DNA of 64,000 bases. Source: Streptomyces cathayae (GTDB lineage Bacteria; Actinomycetota; Actinomycetes; Streptomycetales; Streptomycetaceae). Location of the stretch: contig NZ_CP121682.1 in NCBI RefSeq assembly GCF_029760955.1, forward strand, positions 4,836,001 through 4,900,000. The letters are read 5' to 3'. The notes beneath the pieces were generated by a model. It did not search any database. It saw only the letters and a program-made list of their open reading frames with translations, and had not been told where the DNA came from. The position numbers were made by a program, and so were the translations under genes. Below are positions 15,396 through 21,416 of the stretch, piece after piece; positions within the stretch are counted from its first letter, which is position 1, and every line of letters starts with the position of its first letter.

Positions 15396-15763
15396 CCCGT
15401 CCTCACCCCCGGCCGGCCCACACGCGCCCCGGCCCTTTCGCTCCTCCCCGCTCTTCCTCATTCCTCTTCACTCCTCTTCACTCCTCCCCTCCAACTCCAC
15501 CGTCCCGTATGCGGCTTTCGTTCTCCGCCTCGCGAAGTGACTTCGCTTACACCTCGTTTGGTCTCCGCGTCGCGTGGGCAGCCCGGCCGGTCCGGCCGCT
15601 GTGGCGGGAATGTGAAGAAGAGGCGGGGGGAATGTGTGCCCATGTCCCGGTCTTCCCCCCGCTCCGCGGAAAACTCTCGCCTCAGGTTGAACATCCAACC
15701 CACCCCGTCCGTACCGGTTGTGGAGCGAACGACTGGGGGATCCCCCGGACACCGGAGGTGGGC
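15396..15763. other. intergenic region with pyrimidine tract and 15-bp palindrome upstream of sigU
   Basis: No gene is seen. 15435-15500 is a C/T-rich tract with short direct repeats of CTCTTCACTC. A perfect palindrome GCGAAGTGACTTCGC lies at 15532-15546. GGTTG / CAACC arms (15685-15700, 6-nt spacer) lie nearer sigU. These are plausible control sites for sigU, but no assignment is made. Confidence 0.4.
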
Positions 15764-16363
15764 GTGCGCAAGGATGCGGCCGTGGCCAATGAACGTGGAG
15801 CGAGGGCCCGACATCGCATGTCTCCGTCCTCATCGTCTCCGTCCTCATCGTCGAACGAACCTGACGAGGAGTTGATGCGTGCGCTGTATCGAGAGCACGC
15901 GGGACCCTTGCTCGCCTATGTCCTGCGCCTGGTCGCCGGAGACCGGCAACGCGCCGAGGACGTCGTGCAGGAGACGCTCATCCGTGCCTGGAAGAACGCC
16001 GGTCAGCTCAATCGAGCCACCGGTTCGGTACGCCCCTGGCTGGTGACGGTCGCCCGGCGCATCGTCATCGACGGCCACCGCAGCCGGCAGGCCCGGCCGC
16101 AGGAGGTCGATCCGTCGCCGCTGGAGGTCATCCCCGCGGAGGACGAGATCGACAAGGCGCTGTGGCTGATGACGCTGTCGGACGCACTCGACGACCTGAC
16201 CCCGGCTCACCGGGAGGTGCTCGTCGAAACGTACTTCAAGGGACGTACGGTCAATGAGGCGGCCGAGACGCTGGGCATACCCAGCGGCACGGTCCGCTCC
16301 AGGGTCTTCTACGCCCTGCGTTCGATGAAGCTGGCACTGGAGGAGCGGGGGGTGACGGCGTGA
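15764..16363 (+). CDS. sigU: ECF RNA polymerase sigma factor SigU
   Basis: 199 aa. Sigma region 2 (LMRALYREHAGPLLAYVLRL and DVVQETLIRAWKNA) and region 4 (LTPAHREVLVETYFKGRTVN, AAETLGIPSGTVRSRVFYALRS) are clear, with no extra domain, as in ECF factors. GTG 15764 has GGAGG 5 nt upstream. It overlaps the following ZAS anti-sigma gene (TGATG). The pair, the HelD gene and malic enzyme lie in the same order as sigU-rsuA in S. coelicolor, where SigU affects secretion and differentiation when released. The name rests on this recalled synteny. Confidence 0.85.
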   Translation: MRKDAAVANERGARARHRMSPSSSSPSSSSNEPDEELMRALYREHAGPLLAYVLRLVAGDRQRAEDVVQETLIRAWKNAGQLNRATGSVRPWLVTVARRIVIDGHRSRQARPQEVDPSPLEVIPAEDEIDKALWLMTLSDALDDLTPAHREVLVETYFKGRTVNEAAETLGIPSGTVRSRVFYALRSMKLALEERGVTA

Positions 16364-17202
16364 TGAACGGGTACGGGGGAAACCAGGGATTCGGCGCGGG
16401 TGGTTCGGGTATGTCTGGTGTCATGCAGGGATCACCGGTGCCGAACGAGCATGAGACCGTCGGCGCCTACGCTCTCGGGATCCTCGACGATGCCGAGGCG
16501 ACCACGTTCGAGGCGCACCTCGCGAGCTGCGAGTGGTGCGCCCAGCAGCTCGACGAACTCGCCGGTATGGAGCCGATGCTGGCCGCCCTCGCGGACCTGC
16601 CCGGCACCGGTACACCATCGCTCGGCGAGTCGCTGTCGGCCAAGCCGGCGCCGCGCGTGGTGGAGAAGCTGGTCGACGAGGTCGCCGAGCGCCGCGCCAA
16701 GAAGCGCCGCCGCAACTTCTACATGGTGGCCGCCGCCGGCGCCCTGATCGTCAGCGGCCCCTTCGTGGCCGTCGCGGCGAACAGCGGCAACGACGGCGGG
16801 GGCGGCGGGACCGGCGGCACCAACCAGACCCTCTCCGCGAACCCCGCGGAGGATCTCTTCGAGCAGATCCCCGACAAGATCACGGCCACCGACCCGGGCA
16901 CCAAGGTGTCCGTGACCCTGGCGCTGCAGAAGAAGGACTGGGGCACCGGCGTCGTCACGCAGCTGACGAACGTCAAGGGCCCCGAGAAGTGCGTGCTGAT
17001 CGCCATCGGCAAGAACGGCGAGCGGGAGACCGTCACCACCTGGTCCGTCCCGGAGTGGGGCTACGGCCTGCCGGACGCCAAGACGGACAAGGCCAAGCAG
17101 CCGCTCTACGTCCAGGGCGGCGCGTCGCTGGATCTCAACGACATCGACAAGTTCGAGGTCGTCAACTTCGACGGCGAGAAGCTGGTCGAGGTCGACGCAT
17201 AG
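16363..17202 (+). CDS. rsuA: membrane anti-sigma factor RsuA (zinc-binding ZAS domain)
   Basis: 279 aa. After a Gly-rich start, the ZAS motif H-x3-C-x2-C is visible (HETVGAYALGILDD, then HLASCEWCAQQL at about residues 48-59). One membrane helix follows (FYMVAAAGALIVSGPFVAVA, about 124-143), then an extracytoplasmic domain. It would hold SigU at the membrane until a signal arrives. Translation is coupled to sigU: ATG 16363 shares a base with the sigU TGA (GTG 16360 is an alternative). An 11-bp inverted repeat begins 8 nt after its stop. Confidence 0.85.
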   Translation: MNGYGGNQGFGAGGSGMSGVMQGSPVPNEHETVGAYALGILDDAEATTFEAHLASCEWCAQQLDELAGMEPMLAALADLPGTGTPSLGESLSAKPAPRVVEKLVDEVAERRAKKRRRNFYMVAAAGALIVSGPFVAVAANSGNDGGGGGTGGTNQTLSANPAEDLFEQIPDKITATDPGTKVSVTLALQKKDWGTGVVTQLTNVKGPEKCVLIAIGKNGERETVTTWSVPEWGYGLPDAKTDKAKQPLYVQGGASLDLNDIDKFEVVNFDGEKLVEVDA

Positions 17203-17262: not shown

Positions 17263-19569
17263 GTGGCCGCTCAGGCTCAGCAGGAAACCGCGGTCGATCC
17301 GGTTCACGATTCCGTTCGCGACCGGGAGATCACTACCGAACAGGAACACCTCGACCGGGTGTACCGACGGCTCGAGGAGAAGATCCACGAGGCCGAGTTC
17401 CTCATGCACGACGCCGCCCGGGGCGGCCAGGTCGGCACACCCGGCGCACTCGCCGAACGGGACGCCCAGGTCTTCCGGGCCGGCGTCCACCTCAACCGGC
17501 TGAACAACGAGTTCGAGGACTTCCTCTTCGGCCGGATCGACCTGCTCCGGGGCAAGGACGGCAAGAAGGGACCCGACGGCGCCTACACCGCCGTCGAGCC
17601 CGCCGAGGGAGCCATCCGCCCCGACGGCACCGCCGACATCGCCGAGACCCTGCACATCGGCCGCATCGGTGTCCTCGACGAGGAGTACTCCCCGCTGGTC
17701 ATCGACTGGCGGGCGCCCGCCGCCGCCCCCTTCTACCGGTCCACCCCGGTCGATCCGGGCCGGGTGGTGCGCCGGCGCGTCATCCGCTCCAAGGGCCGCC
17801 GGGTCCTCGGCGTCGAGGACGACCTGATGCGTCCCGAGCTGACGGCCTCCCTGGACGGCCACGAACTGCCGGTCGTCGGCGACGGCGCCCTGATGGCCGC
17901 GCTCGGCCAGGCCCGTACCCACAGCATGCGGGACATCGTGGCCTCCATCCAGGCCGAGCAGGACCTGGTGATCCGCGCCCCCGCCGCCTCCGTGACCTAC
18001 GTCGAGGGCGGCCCCGGCACCGGCAAGACCGCCGTCGCCCTGCACCGTGCTGCCTACCTGCTCTACCAGGACCGGCGCCGGTACGCGGGCGGCATCCTGA
18101 TCGTCTCGCCCACCCCGCTCCTGGTCGCCTACACCGAGGGCGTGCTGCCCTCCCTCGGCGAGGAGGGCCAGGTCGCCATCCGCGCCATCGGCTCCCTGGG
18201 CGACGACGTGTCCGGCACCGGGGCCACCCTGTACGACACCCCGGCCGTGGCCCGCGCCAAGGGCTCGTACCGCATGCTCAAGGTGATCAGGAAGGCCGCC
18301 CGCGGCGCCCTGGAGCACGGCGCCACGCCGACCCGGCTGCGGGTCGTCGTCTTCGGCCGGCGGATCGAACTGGACGCCGACGAGCTGGCGGCCGTCCGCC
18401 ACACCGCCCTCGGCGGCACCGCACCGGTGAACCTGCTGCGCCCCCGCGCCCGCAAGCTGCTGCTGGACGCGTTGTGGGGGCGCTCCGGCGCGGCCGGCCG
18501 GCACACCGATCCGGAGCTCGCCGCCGAACTGCGCTCCTCCTTCGACGACGACGTCACCACCGAGGACGACTTCCTCTCCTTCTTCGACGCCTGGTGGCCC
18601 GAGCTGACCCCGGCCGCCGTGCTGGACGCCATGGCGGACGAGCGGCGCCTCGGCCGCTGGGCCCGGCGGATCCTCAACCCGGGCGAGGTCCGCAGGGTCG
18701 CCCGTTCGCTGCGCCGGGACGGCCGCTCGGTGCACGACGTCGCCCTGCTCGACGAGCTGCAGGCCGTCCTCGGAGCCCCCTCCCGGCCCCGGCGCAGGCG
18801 CGAACTCGACCCGCTGGACCAGCTCACCGGCCTCGAGGAGCTGATGCCGGTGCGCGAGGAGTCGCAGCGCGAGCGGGCCGAGCGCCTCGCCCAGGAGCGC
18901 ACCGAGTACGCCCACGTCATCGTCGACGAGGCGCAGGACCTCACCCCGATGCAGTGGCGCATGGTCGGCCGGCGCGGCCGGCAGGCCACCTGGACGATCG
19001 TCGGCGACCCCGCCCAGTCCTCCTGGTCCGACCCCGACGAGGCCGCCCAGGCCCGCGACGAGGCTCTCGGCAGCAGGCCCCGCCGCCGCTTCGAACTCAC
19101 CGTGAACTACCGCAACCCGGCCGAGATCGCCGGCCTCGCCGCCAAGGTGCTGGCGCTCGCCATGCCCGGGACCGAGGCGCCGAGGGCGGTGCGCTCCACG
19201 GGCGTCGAGCCGCGCTTCGTCGTCGCGGAGGGCACGCTGGGCGAGACCGTGCGCGCGGAGACGGCCCGGCTGCTGGAGCGGGTGGACGGCACGGTCGGTG
19301 TGGTCGTCGCCATGCAGCGCCGGGAGGAGGCGCGGCGCTGGCTCGACGGGCTGGGGGACCGCGCGGTGGCCCTCGGCAGCCTGGAGGCCAAGGGCCTGGA
19401 GTACGACGCGACGATCGTGGTCTCCCCGGCCGAGATCGCCGACGAGTCCCCGGCCGGCCTGCGCGTCCTGTACGTCGCCCTGACCCGGGCGACCCAGCAG
19501 CTCACCGTCGTCTCGACGCGACGGGACGAGCCGGACGCCGCCGGAGTGCCGGACCTGCTCCGGGACTGA
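17263..19569 (+). CDS. HelD/HelR-family RNA polymerase-associated helicase-like ATPase
   Basis: 768 aa. An N-terminal coiled-coil (EQEHLDRVYRRLEEKIHEAE) suits insertion into the polymerase secondary channel. Split SF1 helicase domains follow: Walker A GGPGTGKTAVALHRAAYLLY at about residue 244, Walker B VIVDEAQDLTPMQW, VGDPAQS, and a C-terminal VALTRATQQL motif. HelD proteins remove stalled RNA polymerase from DNA, and actinobacterial HelR gives rifamycin tolerance; which subtype this is needs alignment. I see no rifamycin-associated element upstream. GTG 17263 follows AAGGGGG that lies inside an inverted repeat. Confidence 0.8.
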   Translation: MAAQAQQETAVDPVHDSVRDREITTEQEHLDRVYRRLEEKIHEAEFLMHDAARGGQVGTPGALAERDAQVFRAGVHLNRLNNEFEDFLFGRIDLLRGKDGKKGPDGAYTAVEPAEGAIRPDGTADIAETLHIGRIGVLDEEYSPLVIDWRAPAAAPFYRSTPVDPGRVVRRRVIRSKGRRVLGVEDDLMRPELTASLDGHELPVVGDGALMAALGQARTHSMRDIVASIQAEQDLVIRAPAASVTYVEGGPGTGKTAVALHRAAYLLYQDRRRYAGGILIVSPTPLLVAYTEGVLPSLGEEGQVAIRAIGSLGDDVSGTGATLYDTPAVARAKGSYRMLKVIRKAARGALEHGATPTRLRVVVFGRRIELDADELAAVRHTALGGTAPVNLLRPRARKLLLDALWGRSGAAGRHTDPELAAELRSSFDDDVTTEDDFLSFFDAWWPELTPAAVLDAMADERRLGRWARRILNPGEVRRVARSLRRDGRSVHDVALLDELQAVLGAPSRPRRRRELDPLDQLTGLEELMPVREESQRERAERLAQERTEYAHVIVDEAQDLTPMQWRMVGRRGRQATWTIVGDPAQSSWSDPDEAAQARDEALGSRPRRRFELTVNYRNPAEIAGLAAKVLALAMPGTEAPRAVRSTGVEPRFVVAEGTLGETVRAETARLLERVDGTVGVVVAMQRREEARRWLDGLGDRAVALGSLEAKGLEYDATIVVSPAEIADESPAGLRVLYVALTRATQQLTVVSTRRDEPDAAGVPDLLRD

Positions 19570-19627
19570 ACCCGGAAAAAGGCTCTCGGGGGAATGGTCC
19601 TGCGCCATCCGTTTGTTAGCCTGGCAA

Positions 19628-19766
19628 GTGACACCGGCCCGATCCAAGCCCCCGGGCCCAACCTTCGTCGCTACGAGCGACCACTTGCCGCGAGGCGAGC
19701 ATGGCGGGTCGGTGTCACTGAACGACCGAGAGGCCCATGTCACTTCCGGGTGACATGGGCCTCTCG
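19628..19766 (+). ncRNA. candidate structured non-coding RNA with three-way junction and intrinsic terminator
   Basis: A 14-bp outer helix (19628-19641 with 19705-19718, one G-U) encloses two hairpins: GTCGCT-acg-AGCGAC (19667-19681) and CTTGCC-GCGA-GGCGAG (19684-19699, GNRA loop). A C-rich segment near 19648-19659 is left single-stranded. Eight bases later comes a perfect 17-bp stem with 6-nt loop (19727-19766), a strong terminator shape. A TAGCCT -10 element at 19617-19622 would start transcription at about 19628, exactly at the helix. It lies 58 nt past the helicase gene and 231 nt before malic enzyme, so it may be a free small RNA or a cis-acting leader. I match it to no known family. Confidence 0.65.
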
Positions 19767-19997
19767 CGTCCCTGCCCCGGGTCTGCTGCGGGCGGGCTGC
19801 GGGCCGCTCCGCGCAGCGACTTACGTGCGACCCCCTGCCTCTCGTATGGTGGAACGGTCTTTCCGAAAGCTGCCGCATATACCCGCTTTCCGCGCGAACA
19901 AAACGTTCGCAATAGGAGGCGGCTACCGCGTACTCAGGGGTAGGTGCGACGATCGGACGGCACGAACAGCTACAGGTGAAAGCAGAGGAAGTCGGCC
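19767..19997 (+). other. leader region of malic enzyme gene
   Basis: No gene is seen. GCGAAC / GTTCGC arms with a 5-base spacer lie at 19894-19910, close to an AGGAGG at 19915-19919 that is not followed by a usable start. The malic enzyme has its own AGAGGAAG site just before 19998. Confidence 0.35.
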
Positions 19998-21416
19998 ATG
20001 GCAACGGCGCCCAGCGTCTCCTACTCGATGACCATCCGGCTGGAGGTGCCGTCGAGCGGGACCTCCGTCTCCCAGCTCACCACCGCGGTGGAGTCCTCCG
20101 GCGGCACGGTCACCGGCCTCGACGTCACCGCGTCCGGGCACGAGCGGCTCCGGATCGACGTCACCATCGCGGCCACCTCCACCGGGCACGCCGACGAGAT
20201 CGTGGAGAAGCTCCGCGACATCGAGGGCGTCACCCTGGGCAAGGTCTCGGACCGTACGTTCCTGATGCACCTCGGCGGCAAGATCGAGATGGCGTCCAAG
20301 CACCCCATCCGCAACCGCGACGACCTCTCCATGATCTACACGCCGGGTGTGGCCCGCGTCTGCATGGCGATCGCCGAGAACCCCGAGGACGCCCGCCGCC
20401 TCACCATCAAGCGCAACTCCGTTGCGGTCGTGACGGACGGCTCCGCCGTGCTCGGCCTGGGCAACATCGGCCCCAAGGCCGCTCTCCCCGTGATGGAGGG
20501 CAAGGCCGCCCTGTTCAAGCGGTTCGCCGGCATCGACGCCTGGCCGCTCTGCCTCGACACCCAGGACACCGACGCGATCGTCGAGATCGTCAAGGCCATC
20601 GCCCCGGGCTTCGCCGGCATCAACCTGGAGGACATCTCCGCGCCGCGCTGCTTCGAGATCGAGGCCCGGCTGCGCGAGGCCCTCGACATCCCCGTCTTCC
20701 ACGACGACCAGCACGGCACCGCGATCGTCGTCCTGGCGGCCCTGACCAACGCGCTGCGGGTCACCGGCAAGGCGATCGAGAACATCCGGGTCGTCATGTC
20801 CGGCGCCGGCGCGGCCGGCACGGCCATCCTGAAGCTGCTGATCGCGGCCGGTGTGAAGAACGCCGTCGTGGCCGACATCCACGGCGTGGTGCACGCGGGC
20901 CGCGAGGACCTGGTGGACACCCCCGCCGACTCCCCGCTGTGCTGGATCGCCGACCACACCAACCCGGAGAACCTGACGGGCACGCTGAAGGAGGCCGTGC
21001 GCGGCGCGGACGTCTTCATCGGCGTCTCCGCCCCGAACGTCCTCGACGGCGCGGACGTCGCCGCGATGGCCGAGGGCGCGGTCGTCTTCGCGCTCGCGAA
21101 CCCCGACCCCGAGGTGGACCCGGGCGTCGCCCGCGAGACCGCGGCCGTGGTGGCCACCGGCCGCTCCGACTTCCCGAACCAGATCAACAACGTGCTGGTG
21201 TTCCCGGGCGTGTTCCGCGGCCTGCTGGACGCCCAGTCCCGCACCGTCAACACGGAGATGATGCTCGCCGCCGCGCAGGCCCTCGCCGACGTGGTCACCG
21301 AGGACGAGCTGAACCCGAACTACATCATCCCGAGCGTGTTCAACGACAGGGTCGCGGGCGCGGTCGCCGACGCCGTGCGGGAAGCGGCGAAACTGACGCA
21401 GACCTCGGCCTCCTAG
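19998..21416 (+). CDS. malic enzyme, NAD-type, with N-terminal ACT domain
   Basis: 472 aa. Residues about 8-80 form an ACT-like regulatory domain ([17 protein letters not shown], then LRIDVTIAA). The malic enzyme core follows: [27 protein letters not shown], the Rossmann fold [17 protein letters not shown] and a C-terminal [11 protein letters not shown]. It oxidatively decarboxylates malate to pyruvate at the TCA/gluconeogenesis node. S. coelicolor has an NAD- and an NADP-dependent enzyme; by position this matches the NAD type. AGAGGAAG precedes the ATG. A 22-bp inverted repeat follows the gene. Confidence 0.9.

Follow-up and report, generated by a model that had tools for sequence, protein, structure and literature searches.

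A branched RNA family of Actinomycetes with a SigR/SigH-type promoter match in many of its members

To our knowledge, few regulatory RNAs are common to a whole class of Actinobacteria. OxyS and other small RNAs driven by stress sigma factors are short and free-standing, are induced by stress, and combine a branched fold with a terminator; the comparison with the family described here concerns how such RNAs work. Promoters of SigR/SigH follow the consensus GGAAT-N18/19-GTT. In Streptomyces coelicolor, scr2952 was reportedly described as a small RNA by Vockenhuber et al. in 2011.

According to excerpts of PMC8388888, scr2952 expression was confirmed in S. coelicolor, the RNA is conserved in over half of the Streptomyces tested, and it is in Rfam; the accessible part of the S. 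lividans Rfam table in PMC8079986 has no entry under 2952. In the literature, SCO2952 is described as a HelD and SCO2951 as a malic enzyme. Small RNAs are named after the right flanking gene (Moody et al., PMC3765725, in extract), so scr2952 would sit between SCO2951 and SCO2952, the 60-nt intergenic distance found 5' of helD in the window being too small. The window is the whole 64,000-nt stretch of Streptomyces cathayae DNA analysed here. The genes that flank its RNA are of the same kinds as SCO2952 and SCO2951, and the same order is found in 36 of 37 Streptomyces loci. The S. coelicolor member of the family is probably scr2952, with its placement in this gap inferred from the name. Whereas scr2952 is reportedly in Rfam, the window RNA has no match in Rfam 15. 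RF02829, considered as the scr2952 family, turned out to be Scr4115 and matches elsewhere in the genome. The main texts of three S. coelicolor transcriptome papers, supplements apart, do not contain scr2952, SCO2951 or SCO2952, and the accessible portions of the literature on scr2952 gave no link to SigR or to other genera.

Two further known RNAs invite comparison. The 6C RNA (RF01066), described in an excerpt of PMC8388888 as an actinobacterial sRNA with C runs, has these runs in common with the window RNA but folds into two C-loop hairpins, whereas the window RNA forms one branched junction and has no Rfam match. 6S and Ms1 (scr3559) are likewise widespread structured RNAs of Actinobacteria; the window RNA differs from them in its core of about 90 nt and has no Rfam match to 6S.

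The locus and its predicted fold

In the window, a helD-like gene (17263-19569) is followed by the structured RNA and then by a malic enzyme gene (19998-21416). The helD-like product has UvrD-type helicase domains, and its top NCBIfam matches, HelR/HelD, are both below the cut-offs; the malic enzyme contains both Pfam malic domains above the cut-off. The N-terminus of the malic enzyme (residues 8-79) also gives a weak, sub-threshold ACT-domain match, which would hint at possible control by a small ligand. An inverted repeat, GCGAAC-AAAAC-GTTCGC, lies 5' of this gene at 19894-19910 and is a possible malic enzyme operator; near-identical repeats, for example GCGAACAATACGTTCGC, occur 3' of the RNA in other Streptomyces loci. 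Upstream of helD, at 15500-17202, are genes for an ECF sigma factor and a zinc-finger anti-sigma factor, a pair which we take to resemble sigU-rsuA.

The initial annotation had described a structured RNA between helD and malic enzyme, with a 14-bp closing helix, two inner hairpins, one of them with a GNRA loop, and a 17-bp hairpin, and all of these elements were recovered. The 150 nt of the + strand at 19617-19766 have a minimum free energy (MFE) of -88.4 kcal/mol and a fold z of -8.05 against 200 dinucleotide shuffles, none of which was as stable. The opposite (-) strand also folds well (z -5.87), because long inverted repeats necessarily fold on both strands. The features are as follows.

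19628..19718, + strand: type I RNA core (fold; covariance model score 109.4 bits, the window sequence being in the model; covariation)
19628..19641, + strand: closing helix P1, 5' strand (14/14 pairs with two-sided changes)
19705..19718, + strand: closing helix P1, 3' strand, partner of 19628..19641 (two-sided changes)
19644..19646, + strand: P2, 5' strand CCA, pairing with 19702-19704 (3/3 pairs two-sided; 89% and 79% of cells paired in two sets)
19702..19704, + strand: P2, 3' strand TGG (two-sided changes)
19648..19663, + strand: C-rich junction strand GCCCCCGGGCCCAACC, proposed functional site (CCCCGG conserved)
19667..19681, + strand: P3 hairpin (2/6 pairs two-sided; 98.8% of cells paired)
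19684..19699, + strand: P4 hairpin with a GNGA (GNRA-type) tetraloop, GCGA in the window (covariation; second loop letter C, U or A)
19727..19766, + strand: 17-bp hairpin, probable terminator without a T-run (arms 19727-19743 and 19750-19766, perfect pairing)

A third small hairpin of the MFE structure, GCC/GGC, is not kept in distant relatives as judged by eye. The CCCC letters of the junction are only half unpaired in the predicted ensembles, with a mean of 0.52. RNAalifold offered an alternative in which the C-rich strand pairs with P4; it rests on columns with hardly any variation and was set aside in favour of P4, whose outer pairs change together.

The hairpin behind the core had been called a built-in terminator. 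The perfect 17-bp stem is there, but it lacks a T-run and a simple terminator scan makes no call on it. A hairpin of at least 10 pairs, with G-U allowed, stands 3' of the RNA in 34 of 37 Streptomyces loci and in 23 of 98 loci overall, against 3% in shuffles. Strong downstream hairpins are not general in the family.

It had further been suggested that the closing helix and the terminator arm could compete for the 5' end of the RNA, as in a riboswitch; such an element would act in cis on malic enzyme, as a riboswitch or attenuator. The repeated sequence behind this suggestion is real in the window, with TGTCAC at 19713-19718 and again at 19738-19743 and GTGACA at 19628, and all 37 Streptomyces loci have malic enzyme downstream on the same strand. 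The competition itself did not survive comparison. The first eight bases of P1 can form at least six consecutive Watson-Crick pairs with the hairpin arm in 1 of 37 Streptomyces loci (37 genomes), that of the window's own genome; under the identical strict rule without G-U, the true P1 partner passes in 15 of 37. Forcing GTGACA (19628-19633) onto the TGTCAC of the terminator arm costs 34.6 kcal/mol. Taken together, these two results suggest that the sharing of TGTCAC arose locally by chance. Nor could the RNA be upheld as a leader of malic enzyme, for the checked loci of other genera have no malic enzyme nearby. With neither a conserved alternative pairing nor a constant gene linkage found in these comparisons, a malic enzyme riboswitch is hardly credible.

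Covariation, distribution and gene neighbours

Compensatory changes in related genomes had been named beforehand as the test that could refute the structure; they were looked for, and the structure passed. A covariance model, R1, was built from 21 sequences. In the R1-aligned set of 97 distinct sequences, two-sided changes are seen at 22 of 29 pairs, among them all 14 pairs of P1, and 94.1% of cells are paired, as compared with 77.2% in shuffled and 32-41% in slid controls. Because the R1 alignment was fitted to the structure, an alignment of 21 sequences made by MAFFT only was also counted; here 15 of 29 pairs are two-sided and 95.0% of cells are paired. A further set of 78 distinct sequences again has two-sided changes in 14/14 pairs of P1 and 3/3 of P2, and its number of two-sided pairs, one of five measures, was reached by 19 of 500 shuffles. 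Three of the 83 source loci for this set (L188, L190, L206) gave no match, and alignment A2 took 9 of the 38 Streptomyces loci. P3 and P4 vary little, and few of their pairs change on both sides. The junction CCCCGG is kept in 169 of 171 distinct type I relatives. The internal core of the family looks conserved far deeper than is usual for antisense RNAs. It is close to certain that the sequence is an RNA family.

How far does this family extend? With a 176-nt query, blastn found matches in 101 of the 150 genomes sampled, the own genome included: all 90 further members of the genus and 10 of the 59 genomes from outside it, one of which (G120) matches in the terminator part only. Of the 394 class genomes, 226, from 73 of 137 genera, have an R1 match, and the other 168 have none under strict filters. 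In a phylum-wide sample, R1 matches 30 of 396 genomes, all 30 in this same class. Within the own order, 147 of 147 genomes have type I or type II, 15 of them by weak matches alone (E 5e-7 to 0.009). In the mycobacterial genus, 56 of 118 genomes have a match, a count that includes at least one doubtful genome (G925), which has weak matches alone; four weak matches in this genus (L292, L299, L300, L303; E 0.002-0.008) do not resemble the family on visual inspection and were excluded from the alignments. A scan with an exact pattern drawn from P3 and P4, without CCCCGG or the promoter, has Cellulomonas, Brevibacterium, Arthrobacter, Nocardia, Mycobacterium, Gordonia, Rhodococcus, Geodermatophilus, Nocardioides, Microbacterium, Rothia and others among the matches listed. 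All 74 of the pattern-scan loci that were put to R1 (L100-L173) match it. Since the P3/P4 pattern was used to fetch L100-L218, counting P3 and P4 motif letters in these loci is circular.

The initial annotation could name no family for the RNA, and Rfam 15 was of the same mind: at the gathering score, no family covers the RNA, whether in the window, at nine distant loci or at 13 type II loci. What Rfam did match in those stretches was tRNAs and, in L033, one ASdes about 900 nt away from the RNA. Four weak Rfam matches inside 19542-19815 resemble chance.

The genes beside the RNA change from lineage to lineage. Among the 37 Streptomyces loci (36 genomes, one represented twice), malic enzyme follows the RNA in all 37, and helD precedes it on the same strand in 36. 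By tblastn, neither gene was found at ten distant loci, and when 98 loci were clustered by their neighbours, the malic enzyme and helD clusters consisted of Streptomyces loci only. An uncharacterised protein of about 209 aa is encoded upstream on the same strand in 46 of the 98 loci (L162 and 45 others), its gene ending 20-100 nt before the RNA in 32 of them; it has no Pfam or NCBIfam family. Several NCBI records call this protein 'DNA-directed RNA polymerase subunit beta'. Four loci of mycobacterial type (L064, L070, L078, L108) have a WhiB-family gene upstream on the same strand, identified by Pfam on the L064 protein and presumably WhiB6, and genes that by eye look like phosphate transport stand beside the RNA in other loci. 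Since the neighbours differ between lineages, the RNA is independent of any one of them.

Could the sequence be a mere 3'-end stabiliser or terminator of the upstream gene, with no separate RNA? The same-strand position of helD in 36/37 Streptomyces loci and of the uncharacterised protein gene in 46/98 loci would fit such an element. It would not account for the variation of neighbours between lineages, for core letters conserved beyond what pairing asks (CCCCGG in 169/171), or for a promoter motif at a fixed distance 5' of P1, and we hold this explanation to be very unlikely.

Promoter elements and proposed role

Immediately upstream of P1 lie three promoter-like elements.

19591..19595, + strand: SigR/SigH-type -35 GGAAT (motif count; also before trxB and rsrA in the own genome)
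19615..19617, + strand: SigR/SigH-type -10 GTT, spacer 19 (motif count)
19617..19622, + strand: housekeeping-type -10 TAGCCT (sequence; TAnnnT enriched in relatives without the SigR motif)

The TAGCCT element had been proposed as the -10 of the RNA, and it is present at 19617-19622, although a simple promoter scan of the window locus gave no sigma-70 type promoter. In the window, the SigR-type and housekeeping-type elements overlap: GTTAGCCT. The spacing GGAAT-N18/19-GTT that marks promoters of the SigR/SigH regulon is thus found here, though not in all relatives. Taken by itself, the motif is not above chance in the window, where 2 were found against 1.33 expected. In the own genome, the trxB and rsrA matches are also preceded by the SigR-type motif, at distances of 112 and 965 nt, respectively.

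Across relatives the motif is frequent and fixed in place. In the first set, GGAAT-N17-20-GTT is upstream of the RNA in 31 of 97 loci, against a shuffle mean of 0.23 and a maximum of 2; without Streptomyces the count is 26 of 88 (shuffle mean 0.19), and with GGAAA also allowed it is 34 loci. The distance from the end of the GTT to P1 is 4-11 nt in 32 of these 34, and the spacer is 18 in 21. In the second set, 27 of 28 loci from the genus of G531 have the motif upstream, as do 17 of the 52 remaining loci; shuffles average 0.075 and 0.11, respectively, and the downstream control gave 0 of 78. That genus is taken to be mycobacterial because the stretch upstream of L237 is identical to that of L108, from [Mycobacterium] manitobense. 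Removal of two places shared with the first set and of one duplicate leaves 25 of 26 and 17 of 51, i.e. 42 of 77. Both sets together have the motif in 73 of 174 distinct upstream stretches. As judged from these promoter sequences, the link of the RNA to SigR/SigH would be a strong one.

The motif, in its GGAAT or GGAAA form, is absent from 93 of 171 distinct loci, and 66 of these 93 have TAnnnT at -25 to -3, as compared with 9.4 expected; SigR control therefore cannot be universal, and other lineages seem to use a housekeeping promoter. The same 66 loci suit an alternative in which the RNA is a housekeeping or protein-binding RNA, attached to RNA polymerase or another protein in the manner of 6S or Ms1 and transcribed mainly from sigma-70 type promoters, with SigR control secondary in some lineages. 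The compact branched fold, which would also suit a protein-binding RNA, and the invariant core letters point the same way. Against it stand the SigR-type motif at its fixed place in 42/77 second-set loci, the 168/394 class genomes without a match, and the polymerase-bound RNAs found by RIP-seq, of which the accessible main text of PMC11077062, supplements apart, names scr3559 and scr0792 and not scr2952. On balance, we regard a housekeeping role as unlikely.

We consider it probable, on the strength of sequence comparison, that the locus is a free-standing small RNA gene found class-wide, with a SigR/SigH-type promoter match and a terminator-like hairpin; the predicted time of its transcription is thiol-oxidative stress, and the RNA is likely to act as a trans regulator through its C-rich strand. 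Stress induction is predicted from the SigR-type promoter match in many genomes. Under thiol stress, SigR/SigH would transcribe the RNA from the first base of P1; P1 and the downstream hairpin may protect the product, and the C-rich strand held in the junction would be the working site, from which the RNA may act in trans on other transcripts. The most speculative part of the scheme is that the invariant CCCCGG strand might pair with target mRNAs or bind a protein. As a proposal, we rank trans action above a protein-binding housekeeping role. In the open-access literature listings, we found no report tying a class-wide actinobacterial RNA to the SigR/SigH thiol-stress response. If the proposed trans regulator is real, a stress regulon studied through its proteins gains an RNA member.

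A second, longer form

A second model, R2, also gave weaker matches of about 115 nt, which we call type II. Common to type II are P1, CCCCGGGC (18 of 18 aligned rows) and CGCCG-N-GAGGCG (16 of 18); CCCCGG is present in all 18 rows. The P3 arm is longer and has two-sided changes of its own. A separate covariance model, R3, was made for type II, from which a small helix with a two-base loop drawn by RNAalifold was left out as impossible. R3 matches in at most 108 of 388 class genomes, frequently with two to four copies per genome; 108 is an upper bound for type II, because the weakest R3 matches repeat type I places (e.g. G455:C3:495650). Five genomes from two other families of this order were checked, and in each the long form is the sole match. 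Upstream of type II, GGAA[TAC]-N17-20-GTT occurs in 11 of 19, and a downstream hairpin of at least 10 pairs likewise in 11 of 19. Among 44 type II loci no neighbour gene is widely shared: the largest cluster proved to be a reading frame that overlaps the RNA, and the remaining clusters comprise 2 to 5 loci.

The initial annotation contained neither the SigR-type motif nor the distribution across the class, nor the second type. A broader reading can be put forward tentatively: the SigR/SigH thiol-stress regulon of Actinomycetes may have an ancient RNA arm, one family in two architectures that share an invariant CCCCGG and a GNGA hairpin, possibly a ribonucleoprotein-like regulator that was kept while its neighbours changed.

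The own genome (G000) has four type II copies, at C1:5552-5667 (-), C1:7462045-7462160 (+), C1:315803-315918 (+) and C2:89370-89485 (-). Two of them are close to the ends of the main contig, at distances of about 5.5 and 2.4 kb, and one is on the second contig. Elsewhere, type II copies occur as pairs 2-4 kb apart, as at G735:C1:5331020 and 5334567 and at G1043:C24:96800 and 99000.
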